64,000 bases of DNA from Flavobacteriaceae bacterium (GCA_009827225.1 WUAI01000004.1:62001-126000), one strand, 5' to 3'; shown: positions 46,093 through 63,724, counted from the stretch's first letter. Program-made: numbers and translations. The notes: generated by a model from the letters alone, not told the origin.

Positions 46093-47450
46093 CCAAAAAG
46101 GTGTTTTACCACATCCTGAACCTTTCCAACTTTAATGACTTCAATACCGAAGTCCTCTTTGGAAAGTTTGCAGTATTTTGAGATTACGATGCTTTGGAAA
46201 CCCAGTTTTTCCGCTTCTGAAATTCTCTGTTCTATTTTTGTCACAGGGCGAACTTCACCGGCAAGGCCAATTTCCGCAGCCAGGCATAATCCTTTATCCA
46301 CCGGAATATCAACATTGGAAGATAGAACAGCAGCAATCACCGCCAGGTCGATAGCAGGATCGTCCACAGAAATACCTCCCGTGATATTCAAGAATACGTC
46401 TTTTGCGGCCAGTTTAAATCCGGCACGTTTTTCGAGCACTGCCAGGATCATGTTTAGTCTTTTTGCGTTGTAGCCTGTGGCAGAGCGCTGTGGTGTACCA
46501 TATACCGCTGAACTTACCAACGCCTGAATTTCTATCATAAGTGGGCGAATTCCTTCCAGCGTAGCCGCAATAGCAGTGCCGCTAAGACGTTCTTCATTCT
46601 TAGAAAGCAATACTTCGGAGGGATTCATCACTTCTCTTAGACCGTTGCCTTGCATTTCATAGATGCCCAGTTCGTTGGTGCTGCCGAATCTGTTTTTGTG
46701 GGCACGCAAAATCCGGTATACATGGTTCCGATCTCCTTCAAATTGTAATACCGTGTCTACCATATGTTCCAGGATCTTTGGCCCTGCGATATTTCCGTCT
46801 TTGGTAATATGTCCTATAAGGATGACCGGGGTTGCGGTTTCCTTGGCGAATTTGATCAGTTCCGTGGCACATTCCCTGATTTGAGAAATACTTCCGGCAC
46901 TACTCTCAATATAATCTGTGTGAAGTGTTTGAATGGAATCAATTACTACGATATCCGGATCGATCTCCTGGATGTTTCGAAAGATATTTTGGGTCTTTGT
47001 TTCTGTGAGGATAAAACATCGATCCGAGTCTGGACGAATCCTTTCGGCCCTCATTTTGATCTGTTGCGCACTTTCCTCACCAGAAACATACAGTGTTTTG
47101 TAGGGTAAACTCAAGGCGACCTGTAGCATCAGGGTACTTTTTCCAATACCCGGTTCACCCCCCAGTAAAGTGAGAGATCCGGGGACTAATCCGCCTCCCA
47201 GAACCCTATTTAGCTCCAAATTCTTTGTATCAAGTCGTACTTCTTTCTCCTGGGTTATTTCTGAAATTTTTAGAGGTTTAGAAGCACGATGAGAAGAGGT
47301 GGGTCCCGACTTCCACGTCGATTTTTCTGCTTTTTGTATGATTTCTTCAGCAATCGTGTTCCATTCCTTACAAGAGGTACACTGGCCCTGCCATTTGGAA
47401 TACTGAGCGCCGCAATTCTGACAAAAAAAGGTGGTTTTTACTTTGGCCAT
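46089..47450 (-). CDS. radA: DNA repair protein RadA
   Basis: Zinc finger [44 protein letters not shown]. Confidence 0.96.
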   Translation of the reverse strand: MAKVKTTFFCQNCGAQYSKWQGQCTSCKEWNTIAEEIIQKAEKSTWKSGPTSSHRASKPLKISEITQEKEVRLDTKNLELNRVLGGGLVPGSLTLLGGEPGIGKSTLMLQVALSLPYKTLYVSGEESAQQIKMRAERIRPDSDRCFILTETKTQNIFRNIQEIDPDIVVIDSIQTLHTDYIESSAGSISQIRECATELIKFAKETATPVILIGHITKDGNIAGPKILEHMVDTVLQFEGDRNHVYRILRAHKNRFGSTNELGIYEMQGNGLREVMNPSEVLLSKNEERLSGTAIAATLEGIRPLMIEIQALVSSAVYGTPQRSATGYNAKRLNMILAVLEKRAGFKLAAKDVFLNITGGISVDDPAIDLAVIAAVLSSNVDIPVDKGLCLAAEIGLAGEVRPVTKIEQRISEAEKLGFQSIVISKYCKLSKEDFGIEVIKVGKVQDVVKHLFG

Positions 47451-47483
47451 TGTCTTTCAGCTAAAATAGATATATTTACTATC

Positions 47484-50400
47484 GTGGTAAAAAAAATTGT
47501 CCCGATCTTTTTTTATTTCTGCGCCGCCATTGTCTCGGCACAATCCCAATTCGCATATCACGAAGTATTTAGTAAAAGGGAAGGTCTGGAGTTGGATAAT
47601 ATTCAAGCCATGGCCTTCGACAGTGATGGCTTCCTCTGGCTGGGAGGTACTAATCTCGACAATCGCAAGATCATATTCAGTGAGAAAAAGATAGCGCTAC
47701 AGCGATTCAACGGTAAAAGCTTTCATTCCATCACCTTGCCGGAAGAGGCCGGGGATGCGATAAGTGTGGATGATATCTACAAGCGAAGTGATGGTAAGTT
47801 TTATGTTTCAGGAAAGAACGATTCACGGTTTATGTTCGAATTCGATCCATTTACGGCAGAATTCAGAAAAATAGATCTTCCCAATTCAGACGCTACCCAT
47901 TTCTCCGCATCTCGGATTTTTAGGTACGAGGATACCGATTTTATCCTCTTGCAGAACGATCGAACGATTAGTTTATATCAAATAGAGAAAAACTCTTCGT
48001 TCAAACGGATCTTTAGTTTCACATCGAGTGAGAATAAGTTCCTCCTGGATCAATCCACGGTATTTATTCCCTTTGAAGATTACTGTATAATTGGGGATGA
48101 TAATTTCCCCATAACCATATTGGATTGGTATGGGAACGTCCTAAAAAAGTTCCATGAAGAAACGTTCAAACGGAATCGTGATATAGAATTGAGAAAAGTT
48201 TGGATTGATAAGTATTTCGTTCATAATAATTCGTTGTATTGCTATATGGACGATAATCCTGAACTCTACTATTTCAATACTACGGTTATGGATTTTGAAT
48301 CAAGTCCTGTTGAGGATATGGCGGTAAATACTGATATATTTCAAACTGCGAACGACTCTATGGGGAATCATATAATTTGCACCATTGATGACGGATTTAT
48401 CAAGTTGGGTAATCATTCGGAAAGTGGAATCGACTTTCGTTCGCGTCTGTCCGGTTTTGATGAAGTGGAAGCCTTTCAGGTTCAATCCAGAGATTTTAGG
48501 AAGGACATTTGGATTGGAACCAGTGGAGGAGAATTGCACTATGTTAGATTTCCTTCCAACTTGATCAAGACCTATTTTCCCAATGAGGCCATGAGATTTC
48601 TCACCCAGCTGGATAGTGTTAATTATTTGGCAGCCACAGATCATAACGGTTGGTTTACGTTCAACCGTCACACCAATGAATCTCAACTTGTCTCACTAAA
48701 GGAAGGTAGTAAAGAGTTCTCTCCGCTGTACAGTTTTAATCTTGTGCAAAGGGGAGATACTATTTACAGTCATACAGGAGGGGATATCATCGAAGTTAAT
48801 TTGACGGAACGTAAAGTCAAGTCCTATAAGCATTATCCGGCATTGTGTTTAAAGGAAGCATCGGATTCGACTTTGATTTACGGAACGAATGGGTACTACT
48901 TGATGGAATTCAATACCCGCACCAAAGTAAATCGTCCATTGATAAATACAGATACCCTGGCGGTTTATGATGTGGAGATCGATCAAAATGCGGGATTGGT
49001 GATTGGTGCAACAGATAAAGGCATGCTTCGTTATGATTTGAAATCCGAAGAAGCTCGAATGTACACTGTGTCGGATGGTTTGGAAGATCAATTTATGCTT
49101 ATGGCGGATTATCAGGAGGATCATGGATACCTTTTGGGCACCCGCTCCGGATTGATATATACCTATGATCCAAAGAGCGATACCCTTACCAAAGTTTATG
49201 AGGATGATTTAAAGGCTGGAATTGCCACTATATTATTCGAGGACTCCACATGGTGGATCAATACGTTCAATGGTGTGGTTGCGTTTAATCCCGATGACCA
49301 AACAAAATATCGATTTTCCGATAACGACGGTCTAAGCAACAATGAAGCAAACCGACATAGTGCCTTGAAAACAGAGGACGGGCTATGGGTTGGGACCATA
49401 AATGGTCTTAATTTTTTCAGGCCGGAAGAGTTGAAACCTACTTCTTTGCAATCAGATTTAGTGTTGCTGAGAGTTAAAAGGTTTAATTCCAATGAAGGGA
49501 GGGTGGTTGAAAATATGAACCGACAAGTCATAGAGCAATCCAAAGAGATTATCCTTCCCGCCGAATATAAAGAACTGGAAATAGATTTTGCCCTTACTGC
49601 AAATATGGAAGGTCGTGAAAACTCCTTTAGCTATCGGATGGATGATTCAGAATGGATTGATCTAAAGGATGAACAATCCATACGATTTCCAATTTTATCT
49701 GCCGGGAAATATGAGCTCGAAATAGAAGCGCGGGACTTTTCCGGGAACAGGATTGGACAACCTTTGCTATTCAATATCAACTCAAAAGAATTCTTTTACA
49801 ACACCTGGTGGTTTTACACCTTGACTTTCCTTTTACTGAGTTCCATGCTTTTTTATTTCTATATGCAAGCCCTCGAGAAAAGGAAAATGCAGGAGCAGTT
49901 TACCGAAGATTTACTGAATTCTCGTGAAAAGGAACGTACGCGAATCGCAAAAGATCTTCATGATAGTGTGGGTCAGCAGCTTACTCTTATCAAAAAGAAA
50001 GCCCAACAGCAGGACGTCAATGATATTTCAGAATTAACCCATAAAACATTGGAAGAGGTCCGAGGAATTTCCAGGGGGCTATATCCTTCGGTGTTAAATC
50101 AATTAGGACTTTCAGAAAGTATAGAACAGCTATTGCTGGAGCTTGATGAACAAACGGATATATTCTTTACTTCGGAAATTGATAATATCGACGGCTATTT
50201 AAAAGATAATGCCGCTCTTAACTTCTATAGATTTGTGCAGGAGTGTATGTCGAATGTCCTGAAGCATTCAGAAGCTACTTCGGTTTCGGTGAATATAAAG
50301 AAGATAAAAAATAACCTCATCACCGAAATCAAAGATAACGGTAAAGGTTTCCATGTGGATGAAGCAGCCAGGAATCGAAGCCTGGGTCTTACCACTTTAT

Positions 50401-50492
50401 CGGAACGTATTCGTATTTTAGGAGGACAAATGGATATTCAAAGTAAATTGGGTAAAGGGACTACTATAAACGCACAAATTCCGGTATCATGA
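47484..50492 (+). CDS. Sensor histidine kinase with Reg_prop-type propeller and HisKA_3/HATPase output
   Basis: Supplied ORF (47289) trimmed to in-frame GTG giving VVKKIVPIFFYFCAAIVSAQ signal peptide; EDGLWVGTINGLNFFRPEEL; TM; EKERTRIAKDLHDSVGQQLTLIKKK; DNGKGFHVDEAARNRSLGLTTLSERI. Confidence 0.85.
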   Translation: MVKKIVPIFFYFCAAIVSAQSQFAYHEVFSKREGLELDNIQAMAFDSDGFLWLGGTNLDNRKIIFSEKKIALQRFNGKSFHSITLPEEAGDAISVDDIYKRSDGKFYVSGKNDSRFMFEFDPFTAEFRKIDLPNSDATHFSASRIFRYEDTDFILLQNDRTISLYQIEKNSSFKRIFSFTSSENKFLLDQSTVFIPFEDYCIIGDDNFPITILDWYGNVLKKFHEETFKRNRDIELRKVWIDKYFVHNNSLYCYMDDNPELYYFNTTVMDFESSPVEDMAVNTDIFQTANDSMGNHIICTIDDGFIKLGNHSESGIDFRSRLSGFDEVEAFQVQSRDFRKDIWIGTSGGELHYVRFPSNLIKTYFPNEAMRFLTQLDSVNYLAATDHNGWFTFNRHTNESQLVSLKEGSKEFSPLYSFNLVQRGDTIYSHTGGDIIEVNLTERKVKSYKHYPALCLKEASDSTLIYGTNGYYLMEFNTRTKVNRPLINTDTLAVYDVEIDQNAGLVIGATDKGMLRYDLKSEEARMYTVSDGLEDQFMLMADYQEDHGYLLGTRSGLIYTYDPKSDTLTKVYEDDLKAGIATILFEDSTWWINTFNGVVAFNPDDQTKYRFSDNDGLSNNEANRHSALKTEDGLWVGTINGLNFFRPEELKPTSLQSDLVLLRVKRFNSNEGRVVENMNRQVIEQSKEIILPAEYKELEIDFALTANMEGRENSFSYRMDDSEWIDLKDEQSIRFPILSAGKYELEIEARDFSGNRIGQPLLFNINSKEFFYNTWWFYTLTFLLLSSMLFYFYMQALEKRKMQEQFTEDLLNSREKERTRIAKDLHDSVGQQLTLIKKKAQQQDVNDISELTHKTLEEVRGISRGLYPSVLNQLGLSESIEQLLLELDEQTDIFFTSEIDNIDGYLKDNAALNFYRFVQECMSNVLKHSEATSVSVNIKKIKNNLITEIKDNGKGFHVDEAARNRSLGLTTLSERIRILGGQMDIQSKLGKGTTINAQIPVS

Positions 50493-51136
50493 ACTCCGAT
50501 AATATAACCATAGTTGTTGCGGACGATCATCCCATGTTATTGAAAGGATTGGTTGGGGAGTTAACCACCCATAATTATAATGTCCTGGCGACGGCAGAGA
50601 ATGGTGCACAGGCACTTGAAATGGTAATTAAGCATCAACCTTTAGTCGCCCTTCTTGATATTGAAATGCCACTTTTGTCAGGTTTTGAGGTGATTAACAA
50701 ATGCCTTGAAAAGTCCATACCTACAAAGTTTGTGATTCTTACCTCCCACAAGGAAAAGGCCTACGTTCTTAAGGCTAAGAAATTGAATATTTCGGGGTAC
50801 CTGCTTAAGGATGAGCCTTTTTCAGAAATAGAAAACTGTATACGCAAAGTCTTGTCCGGAGAAAATTATTTTAGTTCGGCTTTCGACGAAGTGTTTGAAA
50901 CCAAAGTTTCACCTCAACTGCAAAAAATTAAGTTTCTATCTCCTTCGGAAAGGACTATTGTTCGTCTTATCGCCCAGGGGAAAACTTCGAAGGAAATTGG
51001 GGAATCACTCAGCATATCACATCGTACCGTAGAAAAGCACAGGGCGAACATTATCGATAAGCTGGATCTCCCACCCAGCATGGATGCACTTACCGCCTGG
51101 ACACTCGAGAACAAAGAAATTATCCTTTCACTTTAA
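50489..51136 (+). CDS. LuxR/NarL-type response regulator
   Basis: Receiver VVADDHPMLLKGL...ALLDIEMPLLSG; HTH LSPSERTIVRLIAQGKTSKEIGESLSISHRTVEKHRANI; overlaps kinase stop by 4 nt. Confidence 0.94.
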   Translation: MNSDNITIVVADDHPMLLKGLVGELTTHNYNVLATAENGAQALEMVIKHQPLVALLDIEMPLLSGFEVINKCLEKSIPTKFVILTSHKEKAYVLKAKKLNISGYLLKDEPFSEIENCIRKVLSGENYFSSAFDEVFETKVSPQLQKIKFLSPSERTIVRLIAQGKTSKEIGESLSISHRTVEKHRANIIDKLDLPPSMDALTAWTLENKEIILSL

Positions 51137-51140
51137 GCAC

Positions 51141-51156
51141 TACGTAGGCCTACGTA
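51141..51156. promoter_or_regulatory. Perfect 16-bp palindrome TACGTAGGCCTACGTA, candidate regulator binding site
   Basis: Read directly; third TACGTA at 51172-51177; lies between LuxR-type regulator stop and next start codon. Confidence 0.6.
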
Positions 51157-51230
51157 ATATTCGACGTTGCGTACGTATTTTCTCGCATTGCAATTAAAAG
51201 TAGATTTACTTCAACCAATTATGTATAGGT

Positions 51231-54200
51231 ATGAAAAAAACTACTTGGCTTCTATTTTACCTATTAATCCCCTACTTATCGAGTGCTAATGCAATCAATC
51301 CCGAATGCACGAATGCCAGGAACGATCTTGTCTGCCCGGTTGCGGCTACCATTGTCGATAGTCCCATAAATGCTGCTAATGTTTCTTCAGTCATGACGCA
51401 GATCACGGGCGGAACCGTAGGTTCTACTTATGTTTATACCTATACCGATAGTTCAAGTGGAACGGTCACCGGTTCGGGAGCAGTGTCTGGTTCTGGAGTT
51501 ACATCGTTTAGTGCAGATCTTTCTTCTTTAGCCGAGGGTACGATCACACTGGATGTTACAGTCACAGAGCCTTCTTCAAGTACTTGCATGGATAGTACGA
51601 CGGCGACAAAGGATACCCTTCCGCCAACTGCGATTTGCCAGGACATCACCGTTATGCTAGACTTAGCCGGTAGTGCTTCCATCATTGCAGACGACGTGGA
51701 CAACGGCTCCATCGATGCTGCTTCGAGTAGTATAGATATCGGTACTTTCGATTGCTCAGATTTAGGTCCGAATACCGTGACGCTCACTGTATTTGATGCT
51801 GCCGGAAACTCGGATAGCTGCACTGCTACCGTAACCATCGAAGAAAGCGAAGAGCCTATTCAGGCCAATTGCGAAGACATAGATGTATTTTTGGACGCCA
51901 CGGGCTCAGCAACCATTATTGCAGAAGATCTCAATAGTTCTGCCTCTCCTTCAACAGGGAACACCTCATGTAGTGCACTAACCTATATGGCGAATAATTT
52001 AACGTTCGACTGTGACGATGTATTCAACCCACCACAAGTTTACGATCTTATTCTTTCCGGGGTAATTGGGGACACTGCGACAACCGGACGACCACGAGCC
52101 ATAGAATTATACGTATTAAACGATGTTTCACCCACCGAACTTGCGCGGTATTCATTAGGATCGGCCAATCCTGCGGAAGGTGTCGTGACTCCTGAATTTA
52201 CATTTCCAAGTCAGGGATTTGTAAAAGGCGATTTCATCTCTTTAACAAACAATGCCGCCACTTTTACCACCTTCTTTGGCACTGCACCGAACTTTGTGGA
52301 TGGTGTTGCTCCCAATATCGATGGTAACGATGTGGTCACTTTGTTTTATGACGGAATAGCCATAGATACATTTGGGGACATCAACGCAGTTGAAATTGAA
52401 CCTGGTGTTGAACTGGGTCGGTTAGACAGTTGGGCCTATACCAACGGTTGGGCGTACCGAATTAATAATACAGTAGCCGATCCCGTCTTCAATTTTGATG
52501 ACGGAAATTGGGTATATAGTAGTCCGGGAGCCTTGCAAAATGCTACGACGAACCCACCATTACCACCACCGCCCAATCCTCCGATTACCGGAACGGGTTT
52601 CCCTTTCAACACTTTCGATTTTATTGAGTTTGGCCAACCCACCACCTTATCGCGAACACTTACTGTTGAAAATTCCCTGGGATCCACCGACACATGTATT
52701 TCTAATATCACCGTGAGAGATACCATTTCGCCCGCCTTTAATGTAGTTCCAACACTTACCAAATCATTGGATGCTAACGGATTGGTCCAGATTACAGAAA
52801 CGGAATTATACACCGCCCCTGCAGTAGATGCTTGTGGAATACTGAGGTATAGAGTGACTCCAAGTGCTTTCCCTTGTGACAGTGTGGGGGTACGAACGGT
52901 TTCACTTACCGCTATAGATATTTATGGGAACTCCCGCACCAGATCCAGTACCGTTACCATAGTTGATGATACAAATCCCGTAGCAAGCTGTGGGAACATA
53001 ACTGTAACCCTGGATGCGACCGGATCGGCTACCATCGATGCCATAGAGGTCATCGGAAATAGTAGTGACAATTGCGGAATTGTCGACCAAAGTATTGACA
53101 TTTCTACCTTCGATTGCAGTAATCTGGGACCGAATAATGTTCAACTTACGGTAGAAGATGCTGGAGGGCTCACCGATACTTGTACGGCCATTGTAACCGT
53201 GGTTGATCAAACGCCACCCACTGTAATTTGCCAGGATGTCTCTATTCCATTGGATGCCTCAGGGAATGCTACATTGGCAACGATCGATGTGGACAATGGA
53301 AGTACAGATAATTGTACGATCGCTTCCTATAATGTAAACCAAACGGCTTTTACGTGTGCCAATCTCGGTGAAAATACAGTGACATTGACCGTTACAGACA
53401 GCAGTGGAAATACTGCCACCTGCGATGCTATTGTTACGGTTGTGGATACCGTTCCACCTGTAGCAGTTGCTATGGACATTACCGTCGAATTGGACGCAAC
53501 AGGAAATGCCGTAATTAATGGCGGTGATTTGGACAACGGTTCTTCGGACAATTGTGCACTCGGAACTTTTTCAGTTAGCCCGGACTCCTTTACATGCGCA
53601 GATACTTCAGCGCCGGTTTCGGTTACTTTTACTGCTACTGATGCCTCCGGAAATTCAGCATCCACAAGTGCCCTGGTAACAGTGATTGATACTGTAGATC
53701 CAACAGCGATTTGCCAAAATATTACGATACCACTTGACAGTTCAGGAAATGCTACGATTACTCCTTCAGATGTGGACGGCGGAAGTTCAGTCTCTTGTGG
53801 TAATGCCACGGTAAGCATTGATGTAAATTCATTCGATTGTTCTGATCTTGGTCCTAATAATGTAGAGCTTAGTGTGACCAATTCAAACAACGTAACAACA
53901 ACCTGCACGGCGGTGGTTACTATTGTCGATGAAACTCCTCCAACGGCGGTTTGCCAGGACATTACGGTGGTGTTGGATAATGCGGGGAATAACACCATTA
54001 CAGCAGCTGATATAGATGCAGGAAGTATGGACGCTTGTGGCATAGCAAATACCAGTATCGATATTAGTTCATTTGATTGTTCGAACATAGGGCTTAACAA
54101 TGTGGTCTTAACGGTCACCGATACTCAAGGAAATTCGGCGAGCTGCACTGCGGTGGTTACCGTGATTGACGATGTTCCTCCACTGGCCGCATGTCAGAAT

Positions 54201-55412
54201 ATCACGATTAGCCTCGATGCAAACGGAAATGCAAGTATTACAGCAGATGATGTAGAAAACGGAAGTTTTGACCTCTGCGGAATTGCCAATCAATCGATTG
54301 ACATCACCAGCTTTGACTGTTCCAATTTGGGAGCCAATAATGTAGTACTTACGGTAACAGATACCAGTGGAAATACGGATAGTTGTACTGCAATTGTTAC
54401 TGTTGAAGATAATACTGCTCCAACGGCGATTTGCCAAAACATAACTGTTCCGTTGGATGCCTCAGGAAATGTTTTCATCACTGCAGCCGATATCGATGGC
54501 GGAAGTACTGATGCCTGCGGAATAGGATCTATCTCAATTGGGAACGGACTTTTCAACTGTAGTAATGTTGGATCCAACAGTGTCCAGTTAACTGTTACTG
54601 ATACTTCTGGAAATAGCTCCTTTTGCACAGCAAATGTTACCGTAGAAGATGTGACACCACCAGATGTGCTTTGTCAAAATCTTACCCTGGAATTGGATCT
54701 CTCAGGTACTGTATTTATTACCGTCAGCGATATAGATGCAGGAACCACTGATGCCTGCGGAATATCGTCCATATTCATTGATACAAATTCTTTTGATTGT
54801 TCTAACCTGGGGTTGAACAATGTAACCCTCACAGCCATCGATCTCTACGGAAACCAGGCGAGTTGTGTGGCTGAGGTAAATATTATTGATACCGAAGATC
54901 CTATTATTAATTGTCCTTCTAGTCAAACCGAGGAGATACAGGAAGGAACCCAATTTACGGTGCCCGACTATTTCGCCTTTGGTCTCGCAAATGCCGTGGA
55001 CAATTGTACTGATCCCATTACCATTGTGTCTCAAAACCCTGCTCCCGGCACTTTATTGGATCAAGGGGTATATAGCGTATCTCTTACTGCAGAAGACGAC
55101 AGTGGAAATAGTGAAAGCTGCAACTTTGATCTCGAAGTAGTAACCCTGTTGGGGATTTCTAATATTTCGGAAATCAATTTGGAAGTAGTTCCGAACCCGG
55201 TAGCCGATGAGGTTCGGATTTTGACCAGTAATACGACCTCCATTAAATCGATTTCGATCTTCGAACTGAATGGAAAATTGGTCTTACAGAAACTGGGGCA
55301 GTCGTTCGAAGAAGAAATAAAACTTAAGGTTTCTCAATTACCATCGGCTCCTTATTTAATGGTAGTAGACACACCTTTTGGAAAACGAACATTTCAGCTT
55401 ATAAAAAAATAG
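51231..55412 (+). CDS. Giant HYR/Ig-like repeat surface protein with nested LTD-like domain and T9SS tail
   Basis: About eleven about 80-aa units CQxITVxLDxxGNAxITxxDxDxGSxDxCGI...FDCSNLGxNNVxLTVTDxxGNxxxCTAxVTVxDxxPPTA; C-term VPNPVADEVRI...LMVVDTPFGKRTFQLIKK; signal peptide. Confidence 0.87.
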   Translation: MKKTTWLLFYLLIPYLSSANAINPECTNARNDLVCPVAATIVDSPINAANVSSVMTQITGGTVGSTYVYTYTDSSSGTVTGSGAVSGSGVTSFSADLSSLAEGTITLDVTVTEPSSSTCMDSTTATKDTLPPTAICQDITVMLDLAGSASIIADDVDNGSIDAASSSIDIGTFDCSDLGPNTVTLTVFDAAGNSDSCTATVTIEESEEPIQANCEDIDVFLDATGSATIIAEDLNSSASPSTGNTSCSALTYMANNLTFDCDDVFNPPQVYDLILSGVIGDTATTGRPRAIELYVLNDVSPTELARYSLGSANPAEGVVTPEFTFPSQGFVKGDFISLTNNAATFTTFFGTAPNFVDGVAPNIDGNDVVTLFYDGIAIDTFGDINAVEIEPGVELGRLDSWAYTNGWAYRINNTVADPVFNFDDGNWVYSSPGALQNATTNPPLPPPPNPPITGTGFPFNTFDFIEFGQPTTLSRTLTVENSLGSTDTCISNITVRDTISPAFNVVPTLTKSLDANGLVQITETELYTAPAVDACGILRYRVTPSAFPCDSVGVRTVSLTAIDIYGNSRTRSSTVTIVDDTNPVASCGNITVTLDATGSATIDAIEVIGNSSDNCGIVDQSIDISTFDCSNLGPNNVQLTVEDAGGLTDTCTAIVTVVDQTPPTVICQDVSIPLDASGNATLATIDVDNGSTDNCTIASYNVNQTAFTCANLGENTVTLTVTDSSGNTATCDAIVTVVDTVPPVAVAMDITVELDATGNAVINGGDLDNGSSDNCALGTFSVSPDSFTCADTSAPVSVTFTATDASGNSASTSALVTVIDTVDPTAICQNITIPLDSSGNATITPSDVDGGSSVSCGNATVSIDVNSFDCSDLGPNNVELSVTNSNNVTTTCTAVVTIVDETPPTAVCQDITVVLDNAGNNTITAADIDAGSMDACGIANTSIDISSFDCSNIGLNNVVLTVTDTQGNSASCTAVVTVIDDVPPLAACQNITISLDANGNASITADDVENGSFDLCGIANQSIDITSFDCSNLGANNVVLTVTDTSGNTDSCTAIVTVEDNTAPTAICQNITVPLDASGNVFITAADIDGGSTDACGIGSISIGNGLFNCSNVGSNSVQLTVTDTSGNSSFCTANVTVEDVTPPDVLCQNLTLELDLSGTVFITVSDIDAGTTDACGISSIFIDTNSFDCSNLGLNNVTLTAIDLYGNQASCVAEVNIIDTEDPIINCPSSQTEEIQEGTQFTVPDYFAFGLANAVDNCTDPITIVSQNPAPGTLLDQGVYSVSLTAEDDSGNSESCNFDLEVVTLLGISNISEINLEVVPNPVADEVRILTSNTTSIKSISIFELNGKLVLQKLGQSFEEEIKLKVSQLPSAPYLMVVDTPFGKRTFQLIKK

Positions 55413-55414
55413 AA

Positions 55415-55909
55415 ATGATGAAAGCATTAATACCAGCATTATTCCTTCTAATATCATGGAGTTCCGTGAGCCAGGAAGTACAAAGATCTACTCTAAGTGC
55501 TGCCGGAAGTTCTGTAGAAGTAGAAAGCAACGGAGAAACTTTATTGGTTCAACAATCTGTGGGACAACAAAGTGTGATCGGAACTTATATAGCCCCCGGA
55601 GTTGAAGCCAGGCAAGGGTTTATACAACCACCTATTTCAGTAAAAGGAATTAGCGTTGAAGAAACAGACATCCAAGCAGTAGTGTATCCCAATCCTTTTG
55701 AGAGTTCGATCCAGGTAAAATTTGGGGAAGTACTCAAGGGAGAACTGTCAATACAGGTTTATGACCTATTGGGAAGAACAGTCTATGAAGCAGCGGAAAA
55801 AGCAGCACCAGAAATAACTATAGGATTGGAACATCTCTCCCAGGCAGAGTATGTGCTTCTTATTACTTCCGAAAACAAACAATTTAAAGCAACTCTTTTG
55901 AAAAACTAA
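55415..55909 (+). CDS. Small secreted protein with T9SS type A sorting tail
   Basis: 164 aa; LLVQQSVGQQSVIGTYIAPGVEARQGFIQP; VVYPNPFESSIQVKF...EYVLLITSENKQFKATLLKN. Confidence 0.8.
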   Translation: MMKALIPALFLLISWSSVSQEVQRSTLSAAGSSVEVESNGETLLVQQSVGQQSVIGTYIAPGVEARQGFIQPPISVKGISVEETDIQAVVYPNPFESSIQVKFGEVLKGELSIQVYDLLGRTVYEAAEKAAPEITIGLEHLSQAEYVLLITSENKQFKATLLKN

Positions 55910-55911
55910 TC

Positions 55912-56595
55912 ATGAAACTAAAACTACTTACACTCTTATTGTTCATTTCGGGATGTACCCTTGCACAGCAAATCTTTGTGGAAGTGGGCCGAAACACTTC
56001 TTCTTTTGAATTTAAAAATAACCAAGGGGAAGAACTGGATAATTTACAATCCAAGTCGCAGGCATATATAGGCGGAGGATTTAAACATCAACTTTTCACC
56101 GAAAAACTCAATCTTACCACGGGTCTTTTCTACAATAGTTATGGCGCCATAGGAAGTGATGAGAGCGTCAATAATTTCTTTGAATGGGATATTGATTATC
56201 TCGGGCTACAGGCGGGATTGGAATATTCCTTGTTTGGTAACGAGTTCTACGAGTTTTATATCATGGGTACGGTGGCAGCTGAATGGATGGTTGAAGGCGT
56301 TCAAACAATCAATAATACAGTTTTGAATGTGAAAGACGTAGAAGAATTCGACGACATCGCCATGTTCTTCAGGAGTGGGGGCGGACTGCGATTTACCATT
56401 TCTGAAAAAGCAAAGGCTTATGCGCAATACCTATACGGGTCAGGGTTGGCGCTGGACGATAACAACAATTCCAGCACTACCGAATTACGTATCAATGTAC
56501 ACTCGATCGGTATAGGAATATTAATAGAAATTCCTTCGAAAAAAGAAGAGGAAGTGCTCCCAGAAAATGATACTAACGAAACTGAAAATAAGTAA
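55912..56595 (+). CDS. Outer-membrane beta-barrel protein
   Basis: 227 aa, signal peptide ending LAQQ, alternating amphipathic segments (LNLTTGLFYNSYGAIG; YLGLQAGLEYSLFGNEFYEFYIMG). Confidence 0.7.
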   Translation: MKLKLLTLLLFISGCTLAQQIFVEVGRNTSSFEFKNNQGEELDNLQSKSQAYIGGGFKHQLFTEKLNLTTGLFYNSYGAIGSDESVNNFFEWDIDYLGLQAGLEYSLFGNEFYEFYIMGTVAAEWMVEGVQTINNTVLNVKDVEEFDDIAMFFRSGGGLRFTISEKAKAYAQYLYGSGLALDDNNNSSTTELRINVHSIGIGILIEIPSKKEEEVLPENDTNETENK

Positions 56596-56598
56596 GTC

Positions 56599-59500
56599 AT
56601 GAAGAGAATCATACTTTTATTCATAGTGTTAATGGTCTCAACCATTGGCTGGGCCCAAACCGATGGCCTTTCATATCAGGCCGTGATCATAGATCCGAAT
56701 GCCCAGGAATTACCTGGGGCCAATGCGGCAGGAACCATCCTGCCAAATGCTGAAGTGAGTCTGCGATTTACAATCCTTCGGGACAATGGTACCGTTGAGT
56801 ATAGGGAAATACAAGATACCACAACCGATGCTTACGGGATGGTAAATGTTATCATAGGCCAGGGAGAATCGACATCAGGGAATAGTTTTACAGATATTTT
56901 TTGGGACGGAAACCGAAAGGACCTGCAAGTGGATATCAGAGTCAGAGGGAATTTCGTTTCGCTCAGTGAGCAAGCCTTGACCTTTATTCCGTATGCTCTT
57001 CACCGGGATATCATAGCAACAGGTACCATGAATGTGGATGGAATAGTTTCCTTCGGAAATAATCTTATCGTGGATGGTACCACCGATTTGAATAGTCGTC
57101 TTTCTATAAATAACGAAAGTCCTACAATACTGAGTGGAACGCTCTCCGTTGATGGTGTGACCGACCTCAATAGCAGATTGGATGTGCTGAATGAGAGCCC
57201 TACTAATCTTTCAGGTACTCTCAATGTTGAGAGCATAACAAACCTGAATAGCACCTTAGAAGTAGATGGACAGACCAATTTGAACGATAAATTGGATGTG
57301 GATGGAGATACTCAATTGAACAGTAACCTGGCGGTAGATGGTATCACCACACTTAAGGATGATCTAACTGTAGAAAATGAAGCTGCCACACTTTTAACAG
57401 GAACATTGACCGTTAACGGAGAGACGAATCTGGAAAGTGATGTGTTTATCAATAATAACAGCAACTTGAATCTTAATGGAAATCTAAATGTTGGAGGAGA
57501 AACAATATTCGAAGATGATCTAACCGTGAATGGGGACACCAACTTAAACAGTTCCTTAAGCGTGAATAATAATAGTCCGTCTTTACTAAGTGGTCGATTG
57601 GACGTAATGGGCGAAACGTTGTTAGGGAATAGTCTCCAGGTAAATGGTATTACCAATCTTGAAAACAGATTCTTCGTCAATAATGCGAGTCCGTCGCAAC
57701 TTTCAGGAAGTTTGACAGTGGCTTTGCAAACCAATTTGAACAGCAGTTTGTCCGTAAATAATGGAAGCCCCACCTTTTTATCCGGTCCGCTGGAAGTGGA
57801 TGGCCCAATCGGGCTTAATAATAACCTTACGGTAAATGGCGTGACCAACTTAAATGGTGCACTCTTCGTTAATAACAACAGTCCAACTAACTTGAGTGGT
57901 ATTCTGGATGTAGTGGGCAACACAGGTATAAACGGAATTCTTATTGTGGACGGTGCTACTACTCTGAACGAATCACTAACGGTTGCCAATGCGGGAAGTA
58001 CTTTACTTACCGGAACGCTTTCTGTAGATGGCACTACGGTTTTGAACAATTCTTTGGATGTTACCAATGCCAGTCCGACTAGCTTAACAGGTACCCTAGT
58101 AGTTGACGACATCACCACCTTGAATAATGATCTCACAGTGACCAATGGAGCTTCGACTCAATTAAGTGGAACATTGAATGTTGATGGTGAAACCACCCTG
58201 AACAATAATCTGGAAGTGACGAACGGAAGTCCGACGCTATTAACCGGTATACTGAATGTGGACGGAGAAACCAACTTGAACGATCAGTTACAGGTGTTAA
58301 ATGCGAGTCCTACTAGCCTAACTGGAAATTTGGACGTGGACGGTGAGACCACGTTGCAAAATACCACTACGGTTAATGGCGCTACTACCATCAACAATGA
58401 TTTAAGTGTTACTGGAAACACATTCCTCGGTAGCCTTCAGACCGAAACTATCAATGTAGAAAGCGATAACAGTACTTTTGTCGCTAGTTTTGTGAATACC
58501 AACAGCGGTGATGGAGATGGAATTTCTATCAAACTAGGCAAGCTGCATGGTGGTTGGGACGGTAGCGATTATCTGTCCTTGCCAAACCCTTATTTAGATT
58601 CCGGGTCTTCTTATACAGCTACGATAAATCTTGTTAAGACATTGTTTCAAACCGGTGGACAGGTAACACCAAATGAACTTATCAATATTGCACCTACGGC
58701 TCTTAGGGCAGGTGGGGTGAATGCTGTGAACAGTTTTGTTTTCAGCCAAATGAATACAAGTCTGGGACTACCTAAGACCTTACCGGGAGTTACTTTTCCA
58801 GGTGTCCCGTCGCTAACTCAAACACCACCACCTCTACCTCCATTTCCGGGAGTGACTATTCCTTTTGTGGATGTAACTATACCTGGTTGGCAGGTACCGA
58901 ACGTATCTATTCCGAGCAGGGTCTTAAATAACCCAATAACCAATTGGTTGCCATCATTACCCAACCTTTCACCCGGCGGAGGATTGCCACCTATAGAATT
59001 CCCGAACTTGCCTACGCAAATTGTGGATTCTTCACTATATGCTACCTCGTTGACCAAACGAAACATCTATTTGTCATTTAAAGATAAAGACGATCGGGTT
59101 ACAGGTACCGTGCGTGCCCAGTCACTTCAGGACTTTGCGAACACCACTTACTGTGATCCTGTCTATTTGTTGAATGTCATTGCGGAGTTTATAGGTGTGG
59201 ATTTATTGGACAAAGTGGTTGCCGGTTCGGTGGCGATTACCAATTTTATAGATGCTTTTAATGAAATTGGTGTGGAATATACCTCGGGTAACGGTGACTA
59301 TGCTGAATGGCTTATAAGGAAGGATCCGAATGAATTTCTAACGGCAGGCGATATTGTAGCTGTTGTTGGCGGGCAGATCACCAAAGATATTTCCGAAGTG
59401 GAACAAATAATGGTGGTGTCTCATCGCCCGATCATTTTAGGAAATATGCCTGAAGAAGGGAAAACCCATTTGGGCAACAACGTAGCCTTCATGGGGCAGG

Positions 59501-59835
59501 TACCGGTTAAGGTTATGGGACCCGTTCGTTCCGGGGATTATATTGTGGCTCATCCCGATCTGAAAGGATACGGTCGGGCCATATCACCTAAACAAATGAC
59601 CGCTGCCGATTTCCAATTATCTGTGGGCAGATCCTGGGAAGAAAATCTAAACCAGGGGCCAAAAATGATAAACACGGTTGTGGGAGTTCATAACGGAGAT
59701 TGGGCTCACATTATTCAGAAGCTGAAACAAAAACAGGCTTCCTATGAAGAACAATTCAAATTGATAGAAGCAAAGGTAGAATCTCTGGAAAATGATGCAG
59801 AGGATCTGATCCTTGGAAAATCCAAACGAAAATAA
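56599..59835 (+). CDS. Giant fibre-like protein A: Bacteroidota SYQAV...PYA N-domain, beta-solenoid repeats, Pro-rich segment, NGDYAEW chaperone-like C-domain
   Basis: 1078 aa; GLSYQAVIIDPNAQELPGANAAG..., repeats LxVNGxTNLNxxLxVNNxSPTxLSGTLxVDGxT, C-term SGNGDYAEWLIRKDPNEFLTAGDIVAVVGGQITKD and coiled coil. Confidence 0.8.
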   Translation: MKRIILLFIVLMVSTIGWAQTDGLSYQAVIIDPNAQELPGANAAGTILPNAEVSLRFTILRDNGTVEYREIQDTTTDAYGMVNVIIGQGESTSGNSFTDIFWDGNRKDLQVDIRVRGNFVSLSEQALTFIPYALHRDIIATGTMNVDGIVSFGNNLIVDGTTDLNSRLSINNESPTILSGTLSVDGVTDLNSRLDVLNESPTNLSGTLNVESITNLNSTLEVDGQTNLNDKLDVDGDTQLNSNLAVDGITTLKDDLTVENEAATLLTGTLTVNGETNLESDVFINNNSNLNLNGNLNVGGETIFEDDLTVNGDTNLNSSLSVNNNSPSLLSGRLDVMGETLLGNSLQVNGITNLENRFFVNNASPSQLSGSLTVALQTNLNSSLSVNNGSPTFLSGPLEVDGPIGLNNNLTVNGVTNLNGALFVNNNSPTNLSGILDVVGNTGINGILIVDGATTLNESLTVANAGSTLLTGTLSVDGTTVLNNSLDVTNASPTSLTGTLVVDDITTLNNDLTVTNGASTQLSGTLNVDGETTLNNNLEVTNGSPTLLTGILNVDGETNLNDQLQVLNASPTSLTGNLDVDGETTLQNTTTVNGATTINNDLSVTGNTFLGSLQTETINVESDNSTFVASFVNTNSGDGDGISIKLGKLHGGWDGSDYLSLPNPYLDSGSSYTATINLVKTLFQTGGQVTPNELINIAPTALRAGGVNAVNSFVFSQMNTSLGLPKTLPGVTFPGVPSLTQTPPPLPPFPGVTIPFVDVTIPGWQVPNVSIPSRVLNNPITNWLPSLPNLSPGGGLPPIEFPNLPTQIVDSSLYATSLTKRNIYLSFKDKDDRVTGTVRAQSLQDFANTTYCDPVYLLNVIAEFIGVDLLDKVVAGSVAITNFIDAFNEIGVEYTSGNGDYAEWLIRKDPNEFLTAGDIVAVVGGQITKDISEVEQIMVVSHRPIILGNMPEEGKTHLGNNVAFMGQVPVKVMGPVRSGDYIVAHPDLKGYGRAISPKQMTAADFQLSVGRSWEENLNQGPKMINTVVGVHNGDWAHIIQKLKQKQASYEEQFKLIEAKVESLENDAEDLILGKSKRK
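57026..58440 (+). repeat. Protein-level tandem beta repeats of fibre protein A
   Basis: Repeated 12- and 14-residue units LxVxGxTxLNxx / LxVxNxSPTxLSGT. Confidence 0.85.
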
Positions 59836-59841
59836 TAAGCC

Positions 59842-62800
59842 ATGAAAAAATCAATCATATTATTTTTCTGCTTGTTTTCGATGGGAGTTTTCGCCCAGAC
59901 GGACGGATTCTATTATCAAGCAGTGATCATTGATCAGAATGCACAGGAACTTCCGGGCGCCAATGCCGAAGGGACCATTTTGGCCAACGAAGAAGTGAGC
60001 TTGAGGTTTAGCATTGTGGATTTTTCCGGCACGATTGAATATCGTGAATTGCAGGATGTTCGAACGGATGCCTTTGGCATGATAAACGTTTTGATCGGGA
60101 GCGGAAGAACTACCGTAGGTCTATTTACGGATATCGACTGGACTGCAAATATCAAGCGTCTCGAGGTCGATATTAAATCTAAAGGGAACTTCGAAGCACT
60201 TGAAACCAAAGAACTAACATACTTGCCGTATGCATTTCACAGGGAAGTGATTGCTACTGGTACTATGAATGTGGAAGGAGAGGTGCGATTCACCAGCGAT
60301 TTAATTGTTGAAGGGGTGACAAACCTCAACAGTGATCTCTCAGTAAATAATGCGAGTGCAACCGAGCTAAGTGGCAAGTTGAAAGTGGACTTGGAAACCT
60401 CCCTTAACAACCTAAATGTAAATAACGGTAGCCGAACGGGCTTATCAGGTTCTCTCAACGTCGATGGCGCCACAACATTAAGGGATCGCTTAAATGTTGA
60501 GGATAGCACCTACTTAAAAGATCGATTGATCGTGGGAGGAGATACCCGCTTACGTTCTAATCTGGATGTGGAAGAGACCACCACCTTAAATGATGATGTA
60601 TCCGTGAGAGGTCAAAACCCAACCTTGTTGACCGGGACAATGACCGTTGGTGGTGAAACCAATTTCAACAGCGATGTAAATATTAACAATAATAGTAATC
60701 TGGATATTTCCGGGGGAATGAATGTGGGCGGAGCAACTATTTTAGAACAAGATCTTACTGTGAATGGAAACACCAATCTTAACAATGATCTATCCGTAAA
60801 TAACCAAGCTCCCACCAACCTTTCAGGTAGTTTGGAAGTGGGAGGTCAAACCACTTTGAATTTTGGGTTGCAAGTTATTGGGGACACTGATCTGGAAAAT
60901 TTATTTCGGGTGAATAATGTGTCCTCAACTGAATTGTCAGGAACCCTCGAAGTGGGCCTGGCGACCAATTTGAATAGTGGTCTTTCGGTAAATGGAGATA
61001 ACAGCCTTACTTACCTTTCCGGACCCCTTAATGTAAATGGCTTGATCGATTTTGGCAATGAGCTCACTGTTGGAGGTATCACTAACTTAAATGATGCACT
61101 ATTCGTGAACAATGGCGTAGCTACGAACTTTTCAGGAGATTTGAATATAGGTGGAAATACGAACTTCGGAAATTTGCTCAGCGTAGGTAGTGCAGCAACT
61201 TTCAACAATGATCTCTCCGTGATCAATAATTCGCCCAGTAATCTCTCCGGAACTCTCGAAGTGGATAACAGCACTACACTTAACAGTAGTTTGACGGTAG
61301 CCAATCAGAGTGCCACCTCGTTAAATGGAACTTTAACGGTGGATGGAGAAACCAATATTGGAAATACACTGGAAGTCACGAATGCATCAAGTTCAAATTT
61401 TTCAGGGGTTCTTGGTGTGGATGGAATCACCCAGCTGGAAGATGGGTTAAGTGTAACTGGAGGGAGTACTACAATGTTATCGGGCAATCTTACCGTAGAT
61501 CAGGAAACCAGTCTTAATGATTTGTCCGTATTAAACGGTGTAAAATCTTCTTTTACAGGTACGTTGAATGTGCAGGGCACAACCAATCTCAATAGCCTGC
61601 TGACCATTAATAATTCAACGCTCATAGATAATGATTTGACCGTTACGGGTGCAGCGTCTCTTACTTCCATATCAACAGGAGGAATTACTGTGTCGAGTGA
61701 TCGCCCGGATTTCATAGCGAGTTTTTCAAATTTAAACGATGAAGATGGTGACGGTCTGGAAATTAAACTGGGCAGGAATCATGGAAGATGGACGGGTTCA
61801 GGAATTTTTACTATCAATCAGTTCCTGGTGAGCAATGATCCGTACGATTCTCAAAATCCAACCGATCCCGATTATGTCAATGCCTTTGTCACAATCAAAG
61901 ATCAATTTGTAGCCGGAGGAAATTTTTCAGTGAATGAAATCATTAGTTTGACTCCTGTTGCTGTTCGTTTGGCTTCCATCGGAAATATCAACAACCTGAT
62001 ATTTGGGGAGGTACAAGCACAGGTGAACTTACCAAAGAATCTGCCTTCGGTGACCCAGCCAGCCTATACGGTTCCTGGTTTTGAAACAGAGATCGTTTTT
62101 TTCGGGGGTCTTAATCCAATTTGTTCAGGACAATATTGCTACAGTGTTTGTTTCCCATTTGCAGGATGTATCACAGTTTGTGTTCCCCCGGTTAATGTTT
62201 GTGTGCCCAGGATACCAAAAATCGCTTTTCCGGCCTTATCGGTACCACAGGTTAATATTGCAGCGCAGTTCTCAAATTATCTACCACAACTACCCAGTTT
62301 ATCGGACGCAGGATTGCTAGATGTGTCCTTACCCGATATTCCAACAACACCATTTGCGAACTCTCTTACCAAGGAAAATGAATATGTCACTTTTTTGGAT
62401 ACAGACGATCGCAAAACAGGGACCATCCGGGCGCAATCGATCGTAGATTTCCTTGACAACACCCTGCTGGATGACGTGTATATGTTTAATGTAATGTCTG
62501 CCTTCATCGCCATTGATCCTTCCGATATTGCCGCTGAAAGTGGCAAGGCGGTCTTAAACCTGATCAACGAGTTTAACAAGCTGGGAGTGGAATATTCTTC
62601 CGGGAATGGGGATTATGCTGAATGGTTAGAGCGTGAGCACCTTTCCGAATATATTACTGCCGGGGACATTGTCGCGGTCAATGGAGGAAAGATCACCAAA
62701 GACATTAGCAGTTTCGAACAACTATTGGTCGTTTCTCATAAACCGATTGTCTTAGGTAATAATCCGGAAAAGGGAAAGGAACTGCTTGGGAATACCGTAG

Positions 62801-63156
62801 CATTTATTGGTCAGGTGCCTGTGAAGATATTAGGGCCGGTTACTTCAGGAGATTATATAATAGCTTCCGAAATAATACCGGGTTATGGTAAAGCTGTATC
62901 TCCCGATAAAATGACCTCCAAAAAACACTTATTGGCGGTGGGACGATCGTGGGAAACCAATACCAATGAAGGCCCGAAAGCGGTTCTTATGGTCATCGGA
63001 TTGCAAAACGGAGACTTCAAAAACGAAATTGACAGTTTAGAGGATCGTCAGGAAGTGATGGACACCAATCTGGAGGACATCCAAAGTCGTTTGCAGCGAA
63101 TCGAAAAATTATTAGAAACAAGTTCAGAAAAAACTACGTATGCAACTAAAGAGTAA
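59842..63156 (+). CDS. Giant fibre-like protein B, paralog of A with Cys-rich insertion
   Basis: 1104 aa; same N-domain, repeat block, and SGNGDYAEWLEREHLSEYITAGDIVAVNGGKITKD C-domain; insertion ICSGQYCYSVCFPFAGCITVCVPPVNVCVPR. Confidence 0.8.
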   Translation: MKKSIILFFCLFSMGVFAQTDGFYYQAVIIDQNAQELPGANAEGTILANEEVSLRFSIVDFSGTIEYRELQDVRTDAFGMINVLIGSGRTTVGLFTDIDWTANIKRLEVDIKSKGNFEALETKELTYLPYAFHREVIATGTMNVEGEVRFTSDLIVEGVTNLNSDLSVNNASATELSGKLKVDLETSLNNLNVNNGSRTGLSGSLNVDGATTLRDRLNVEDSTYLKDRLIVGGDTRLRSNLDVEETTTLNDDVSVRGQNPTLLTGTMTVGGETNFNSDVNINNNSNLDISGGMNVGGATILEQDLTVNGNTNLNNDLSVNNQAPTNLSGSLEVGGQTTLNFGLQVIGDTDLENLFRVNNVSSTELSGTLEVGLATNLNSGLSVNGDNSLTYLSGPLNVNGLIDFGNELTVGGITNLNDALFVNNGVATNFSGDLNIGGNTNFGNLLSVGSAATFNNDLSVINNSPSNLSGTLEVDNSTTLNSSLTVANQSATSLNGTLTVDGETNIGNTLEVTNASSSNFSGVLGVDGITQLEDGLSVTGGSTTMLSGNLTVDQETSLNDLSVLNGVKSSFTGTLNVQGTTNLNSLLTINNSTLIDNDLTVTGAASLTSISTGGITVSSDRPDFIASFSNLNDEDGDGLEIKLGRNHGRWTGSGIFTINQFLVSNDPYDSQNPTDPDYVNAFVTIKDQFVAGGNFSVNEIISLTPVAVRLASIGNINNLIFGEVQAQVNLPKNLPSVTQPAYTVPGFETEIVFFGGLNPICSGQYCYSVCFPFAGCITVCVPPVNVCVPRIPKIAFPALSVPQVNIAAQFSNYLPQLPSLSDAGLLDVSLPDIPTTPFANSLTKENEYVTFLDTDDRKTGTIRAQSIVDFLDNTLLDDVYMFNVMSAFIAIDPSDIAAESGKAVLNLINEFNKLGVEYSSGNGDYAEWLEREHLSEYITAGDIVAVNGGKITKDISSFEQLLVVSHKPIVLGNNPEKGKELLGNTVAFIGQVPVKILGPVTSGDYIIASEIIPGYGKAVSPDKMTSKKHLLAVGRSWETNTNEGPKAVLMVIGLQNGDFKNEIDSLEDRQEVMDTNLEDIQSRLQRIEKLLETSSEKTTYATKE
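60262..61680 (+). repeat. Protein-level tandem beta repeats of fibre protein B
   Basis: LTVNGNTNLNNDLSVNNQAPTNLSGSLEVGGQTTLN-type units. Confidence 0.85.
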
Positions 63157-63724
63157 ACTTATAATAGTCTTGTTGTTTTTCTTCGGAAATGCGATGGTAC
63201 TTACGGCGCAGGAGGAAAAGATACATCTAACTAAAGAACAGTTGGAAGCATTGCAAAAGAATGAAGCTGCGGCAGTGTCCTGGCTTGAAGACTTAAAAAC
63301 ACCGGGAGTTAAGGTGGAGGGTGATCAGATGATCTTCAGTGAAGAGGCTTTACGATTATTGAATGATAAAGAGTATCGTGAAAGTGTTTTTACCGGAAAG
63401 GAATTTACTTTTGAAGATGTGGCGTTAAGTTTGAACGCCAAGGAGATTCAAAAAGGATATTACCAGATGCTTACCATCTACCCGGAAAACAAAGAAGAAA
63501 TAGTAAGGTATATATATGCTTATGATAATATATTTCCAACCGACGAAGTGTTGATTGCTGCCTTTTATACCTATGGCTTTTTTGATCCGAATATTACGAA
63601 ACTCGGAGGTAAAAAACCGGAAGTATACCGACCCGACCTGTTTGAGGAATACTTACGTCGTGCCAGGGAAATTATCGCCTATATTCAATATTTCAGAAAA
63701 GAAGAAGACAAAGGAAAGTCTTAA
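63140..63724 (+). CDS. Small secreted protein of unknown function, last gene of the operon
   Basis: 194 aa, signal peptide MQLKSKLIIVLLFFFGNAMVLTAQ; start overlaps fibre B stop by 17 nt. Confidence 0.72.
   Translation: MQLKSKLIIVLLFFFGNAMVLTAQEEKIHLTKEQLEALQKNEAAAVSWLEDLKTPGVKVEGDQMIFSEEALRLLNDKEYRESVFTGKEFTFEDVALSLNAKEIQKGYYQMLTIYPENKEEIVRYIYAYDNIFPTDEVLIAAFYTYGFFDPNITKLGGKKPEVYRPDLFEEYLRRAREIIAYIQYFRKEEDKGKS

Follow-up and report, generated by a model that had tools for sequence, protein, structure and literature searches.

MAT-like fibres of a marine-type Bacteroidota and a candidate outer-membrane base for their display

How might a giant protein built like a phage tail fibre be displayed on a bacterial cell, and what would hold it there? 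The question is raised by two adjacent genes, hereafter fibre A and fibre B, in a 64,000-nucleotide stretch of DNA from Flavobacteriaceae bacterium (GCA_009827225.1 WUAI01000004.1:62001-126000), referred to below as the window; its source is a 3.25 Mb genome of a marine-type Bacteroidota whose relatives are Flavobacteriaceae. An earlier note, made from the sequence alone, had described the pair (positions 56599-63156) as tandem giant paralogs with a domesticated trimeric fibre architecture, used as a cell-surface appendage. Indeed, both open reading frames (ORFs) are intact and lie in tandem, encode proteins of 1078 and 1104 amino acids (aa), and are 53% identical to each other. The fibres belong to a conserved cassette that comprises a small protein sorted by the type IX secretion system (T9SS), here called T9s, an 8-stranded outer-membrane barrel, one or more fibres and, with one tip type, a 194-aa protein (p194).

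It is probable, on balance, that the cassette encodes a bacterial trimeric adhesive fibre system resembling the mosaic adhesive trimers (MAT) of Bdellovibrio, with the base resting on the barrel and T9s and the tip folded by a chaperone. A narrower proposal is plausible but somewhat short of probable: T9s and the barrel would together make up a dedicated base complex, not described before, by which Bacteroidota display MAT-like trimeric fibres, and an "ELPG" loop of the fibre base would be the docking element.

The fibre base, the barrel and T9s

The N-terminal domain of the fibres is matched in 11 of 11 members by NF053851, the NCBIfam model of the Bdellovibrio mosaic adhesive trimer N-domain (best E 1.2e-11), and each other family matches at most one of the 11. 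A sequence search of the N-domain against PDB gave no match. In 110 fibres, the loop that follows YQAxx either has about 13 residues or has about 20-26, almost always 23, together with the motif [EQ][LIV]PGxD, the difference between the two forms being a 10-residue "ELPG" insert.

Loop length and the barrel go together. The barrel gene is found at 69/69 long-loop fibres (54 loci) and at 0/25 short-loop fibres (21 loci), a count limited to fibres with sufficient upstream sequence and including some loci picked via the barrel; two of the loci (L087 and L146) were scored barrel-positive by hand, the barrel being contained in an ORF that is too long or encoded on the other strand. Among loci found only through the C-terminal domain, all 25 long-loop fibres have the barrel and none of the 18 short-loop fibres does, and a phylum-wide sample yielded three more barrels, each of them in a long-loop cassette. 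A family-wide search of 151 genomes found barrel matches in 21 of them; wherever the locus of a match with E below 1e-10 was fetched, the barrel adjoins both a fibre N-domain and a T9SS protein, with the exception of L078, whose contig terminates right after the T9SS protein, ahead of the expected fibre start. No fibre accompanies the three barrels fetched at L091-L093 (E 2e-7 to 8e-4), which are unrelated ones. The gene order is T9s-barrel-fibre at 40 loci and barrel-T9s-fibre at 10, and the link between loop and barrel is kept in both.

The barrel itself is a protein of about 220 aa, for which AlphaFold, run with 50 homologs, predicts eight strands at high confidence; its nearest structural neighbours are OmpA (scores in Table 1), Ail and NspA, and OMP_b-brl is matched in 21 of the 50 homologs. 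Extracellular loops 1 and 3 (2.28 and 2.36 bits) are as conserved as the strands (1.8-2.3 bits), while loops 2 and 4 are variable. An anchor of the PorP/SprF type was considered and rejected for this protein, which has 8 strands and is not a 14-stranded FadL-type barrel.

T9s consists of about 70 aa followed by a type A T9SS sorting domain, which makes up about half of the protein. It is encoded in the region directly upstream of the fibres, is the upstream partner of all fibre types, and lies next to the fibre in 41 of the 43 evaluable loci that were not selected for T9s. PorU is encoded in the genome of the window, and the secretion system is therefore present. No C-terminal sorting domain of type A or B was matched in fibres A and B by Por_Secre_tail or the T9SS models, and the idea that the fibre is T9SS cargo in its own right was rejected for this reason. 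Type A signals permit release as well as anchoring (PMC12618676), so that the fibres might be secreted into the medium or a matrix, for instance as a biofilm scaffold, and not be held on the cell. This is improbable in view of the dedicated outer-membrane barrel at each long-loop fibre and of the conserved base domain, which resembles the proposed cell-proximal domain of the MAT fibres (PMC10769870).

The stalk, the tip and their exchange

In both fibres, a signal peptide and the N-terminal beta domain are followed by a repeat block of about 490 residues, a linker, a Pro-rich stretch, and a C-domain that ends in a coiled coil. Every element listed in the earlier note, from the SYQAVI...FxPYAxHR module through the repeats and the FVASFxNxN..DGDG..IKLG linker to the Pro-rich stretch and the C-domain, is present and conserved in orthologs. 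In the repeat block of fibre A (488 aa), lags of 26, 38 and 12 give self-identities of 39%, 33% and 25%; in that of fibre B, lags of 38, 26 and 12 give 25%, 23% and 21%. Across 300 shuffles the highest value at any lag was 16%, and the units of 12 and 14 residues recognised in that note are therefore far above chance. AlphaFold places strands along the entire block of fibre A, which is of low confidence in this monomer model, and a single long C-terminal helix at residues 1032-1077.

The C-domain appears to be an intramolecular chaperone of the phage type. Peptidase_G2, a phage intramolecular-chaperone domain, matches 11 of 11 members (best E 6.5e-8), and a profile of the C-domain retrieves the solved chaperone domain of tailspike Dpo31 (E 0.003). 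When aligned, the motif S/DFAE of phi29 gp12, which is cut between residues 691 and 692, coincides with G/DYAE at D900 of fibre A. D900 and E903 are invariant in the ortholog alignment; D[YF]AE is found in 113 of 117 C-domains and DYSE in three, the remaining sequence being incomplete, and the D..E pair is thus present in all complete ones tested. In phi29, a chaperone of this type is self-cleaving (PMC4690869). A C-domain without a recognised N-domain occurs in a Gemmatimonadota genome (L144).

Base and tip are exchanged with their own partners. On the C-domain tree the p194 gene changes once, whereas T9s tracks the base type (one change) and not the p194 gene (seven changes). The base type changes ten times on the C-domain tree, at least six of these on supported branches. 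Since the barrel and T9s follow the base, p194 follows the C-domain, and the base type switches on the C-domain tree, {T9s, barrel, N-domain} and {C-domain, p194} each act as a module, and the two modules, as judged from these trees, have recombined at least six times. Other tips on related N-domains include S74 with YadA heads (L050, a short-loop relative), collagen (L089) and unclassified ones (L075, L082, L088). A conserved base with swapped tips, as described for MAT fibres, is also seen here, the same base type being joined to G2, collagen and uncharacterised tips.

Parts of such a fibre do look phage-like: the repeats match cyanophage fibres and the tail-fibre PHROGs 697 and 4549, and the C-domain is of phage type. 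One might therefore suppose that a degenerate prophage, or else an extracellular contractile injection system (eCIS), is what these genes supply with tail fibres. This is very unlikely indeed and was rejected, because no genes of such a system are linked to the fibres and core genes flank them. The neighbours are core chromosomal genes on both sides (an aminotransferase, a class II tRNA synthetase, a RadA-like ATPase, an aldo/keto reductase, PanC and a GlmS-like protein), conserved in relatives. No phage structural, tail or injection genes were seen near the cassette, which agrees with the absence of capsid, portal, terminase and tail genes reported earlier. Moreover, the fibres have signal peptides, and the cassette includes outer-membrane and T9SS proteins. 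Searched against 50,697 phage records, the N-domain matches nothing even at E 1, and the C-domain has a single weak match. Domestication of a phage fibre, as the earlier note had it, does not follow from these data, in which the repeats alone match phage fibres. Because of the missing N-domain match and the one weak C-domain match, the family looks, at the level of sequence, like a bacterial one that shares parts with phage fibres, and not like an obvious domesticated prophage. The other half of that claim, a surface appendage of trimeric-fibre type, is well supported by the MAT-type N-domain, the repeats, the G2-type chaperone, the outer-membrane cassette and the lack of a prophage, with the trimer itself a prediction.

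Anchor or bystander: the role of the barrel

Several results weigh against the proposed fibre system and its anchor. On the N-domain tree the loop changes once and the barrel once; they changed together a single time, and the association therefore reflects a single joint acquisition, strictly retained since, and not recurrent co-evolution (the independent-pairs test of loop against barrel, having one pair only, has no power). Short-loop fibres without a barrel exist, for example L042 in G013 and L035 in the genome of the window, and the barrel is therefore dispensable for some such fibres. The window N-domains score 26-30 bits on NF053851 against a curated cut-off of 60 bits, for which reason they are termed MAT-like and not MAT members; a fold search of the N-domain in PDB gave no significant match. 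On Peptidase_G2 (PF11962), the two window fibres reach 15.7 and 18.7 bits, under the gathering score of 25 bits. Finally, the full-length monomer model of the fibre is poor (pLDDT, the AlphaFold confidence score, 47.6), and its fold comparison gave no significant match.

The single origin of the association suits another explanation of the same fibres, namely that the barrel is a general surface protein linked to them by chance or by co-regulation, and that the base is anchored by T9s alone or through lipid or polysaccharide. T9s without a barrel at short-loop fibres, and its adjacency to the fibre in nearly all independent loci, also speak for this. The explanation is nevertheless unlikely, since the barrel has been strictly retained across many genera and in two gene orders, its extracellular loops are conserved, and down to E 1e-10 no member of its family in the family-wide and phylum-wide sets occurs without a fibre (one locus ends at the contig edge before the fibre). 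The barrel and T9s are good candidates for the anchor of such fibres.

If they are the anchor, the system might work as follows. Three chains would wind into a stalk, with trimerisation driven by the C-terminal domain (from D900 in fibre A and about D924 in fibre B), so that the stalk would nucleate at its C-terminus. The C-domain may then cut itself off at G899/D900, as that of phi29 gp12 does. The base would dock via its ELPG loop onto the conserved extracellular loops of the barrel, T9s, exported by the T9SS, would help to hold the fibre on the cell surface, and p194 may assist the tip or its chaperone. An 8-stranded barrel is not known to have a usable pore; it is too narrow for fibre export and would therefore be an anchor, not a pore. 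The fibre carries a signal peptide and lacks a sorting domain; the favoured guess is that it crosses the outer membrane by piggy-backing on T9s through the T9SS. The fibres probably serve in adhesion, either to a surface or to another cell.

The gene cluster and its place among known systems

The cluster, which is kept in relatives, spans 47289-63724 here and is thus wider than the fibre pair, adding the T9SS-sorted protein, the barrel and the 194-aa gene (Table 1). The true start codon of the sensor kinase may lie farther downstream than listed; the kinase is placed equally 5' of the cassette in L036, L037, L039 and L074, and the HYR-repeat T9SS protein is retained together with tandem-fibre loci. 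Sensor kinase, response regulator and HYR-repeat protein suggest regulated display, and the adjacent two-component system possibly controls it.

Table 1. Features of the fibre cluster, in positions of the window
Feature	Position	Strand	Evidence
Sensor histidine kinase (beta-propeller/Y_Y_Y sensor, HisKA_3)	47289..50492	+	Pfam HisKA_3, HATPase_c, Reg_prop, Y_Y_Y
LuxR-type response regulator	50489..51136	+	Pfam Response_reg and GerE
Giant HYR-repeat protein, 1393 aa, C-terminal T9SS sorting signal	51231..55412	+	HYR E 6.5e-13; C-terminus matches T9SS sorting profile
T9s, small secreted protein	55415..55909	+	Por_Secre_tail E 3e-11, TIGR04183 E 1e-8
Barrel, 8-stranded OmpA/OmpX-like outer-membrane protein, candidate anchor	55912..56595	+	AF2 pLDDT 90, Foldseek OmpA E 7e-9
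Fibre A, 1078 aa	56599..59835	+	ORF and ortholog alignment
Fibre A: N-domain, residues 20-140, MAT_N-like	56656..57018	+	NF053851; pLDDT mostly 70-88 over residues 50-130
Fibre A: 23-residue "ELPG" loop of N-domain (13 residues in barrel-less relatives)	56686..56754	+	Loop alignment
Fibre A: repeat block, residues 138-625, 12/14-residue beta units	57010..58473	+	Self-identity, AlphaFold, PHROG 697 and 4549
Fibre A: FVASFxNxNxxDGDGxxIKLG linker	58477..58539	+	Ortholog alignment
Fibre A: Pro-rich segment	58765..59034	+	Sequence, AlphaFold
Fibre A: G2-type intramolecular chaperone region, D900 to C-terminal coiled coil	59296..59832	+	Peptidase_G2; phi29 gp12 alignment; predicted scissile bond G899/D900
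Fibre B, 1104 aa, architecture as fibre A	59842..63156	+	Peptidase_G2 E 0.0012
p194, 194-aa secreted protein	63140..63724	+	Partner of the C-domain type found here; 1 change on C-domain tree

The same tandem pair is found in four same-genus genomes (in one, divided between two contigs), at the matching chromosomal site wherever the contig permits; shared 3' neighbours are a protein of about 387 aa, a membrane protein of 320-345 aa, PanC and starch-synthase-like proteins. The genome of the window also contains a second cassette copy with T9SS protein, barrel and fibre, interrupted by a contig end (L034, G000:C50:15371-17285), in whose relatives one fibre of about 700-740 aa adjoins an Mrp/NifU-like gene. 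A third fibre type in this genome (L035:4489-6936, G000:C25) has a short-loop MAT_N-like base, a T9SS protein upstream, no barrel and an unrecognised tip. At loci with the barrel-T9s-fibre order (L079, L080, L083, L161, L163, L168-L170), a T9SS protein of about 1800-1890 aa, possibly a further partner, lies immediately 3' of the fibre. At L090:8878-10047, next to a T9SS protein and a barrel that are both intact, a long-loop fibre gene is split into short ORFs and is likely decayed or frameshifted.

Among known systems, the MAT fibres of Bdellovibrio bacteriovorus (Caulton 2024, PMC10769870; NF053851) share with the window fibres the signal peptide, a beta-rich base of about 130 aa, a long beta stalk, a length of about 1000 aa, and the mosaic logic, in which the C-terminus is a chaperone or an exchanged tip (relatives of the base domain have S74, collagen and others). 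Trimeric beta-prism/beta-helix stalks and display on the surface are among the traits of the MAT superfamily. The window fibres differ in scoring below the NF053851 cut-off, in their G2-type chaperone, T9SS/barrel cassette and tandem operon pair, and in belonging to another phylum. In the predator Bdellovibrio, MAT fibres are prey-binding, and their attachment to the cell is stated to be an open question; the main text of that work names no Bacteroidota and no anchor, its supplementary tables being said to list selected other strains (PMC10769870).

With the neck appendage gp12 of phi29 (PF11962) the window fibres share a C-terminal chaperone behind a beta stalk and the D..E motif at the position that corresponds to the cleavage site; in contrast, P1 is Gly/Ala and not Ser, the protein ends in a coiled coil, the fibre is cellular, and cleavage is predicted. 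SprB with SprF, and other type B T9SS cargo with PorP/SprF barrels, likewise pair a giant adhesin with a dedicated barrel gene beside it (PMC9143113, PMC12618676), and SprF, thought to hold SprB on the surface, is a functional precedent (PMC9143113). However, PorP/SprF barrels are 14-stranded and of FadL type, whereas that of the window is 8-stranded and OmpA-like, and the window fibre lacks a sorting domain, a type A signal being borne by the separate T9s. Trimeric autotransporter adhesins such as YadA also form trimeric surface stalks, as is predicted for the window fibres, and YadA head repeats occur in the N-domain relative L050; the window fibres cannot be classed with them, having no C-terminal translocator barrel, and their candidate anchor is a separate gene.

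If the proposal is true, the barrel and T9s would be the first anchor to be identified for a base domain of MAT type, and the cassette would be a modular display platform whose tips and partner genes are swapped. MAT-like fibres are extended to Bacteroidota and Ignavibacteria, and modular design in bacterial surface fibres is cleanly illustrated by base and tip modules that are exchanged along with their own partner genes. Since a relative in another phylum offers one particular gene as candidate anchor and one particular loop, the question of how MAT fibres are anchored becomes directly testable in culturable marine strains.

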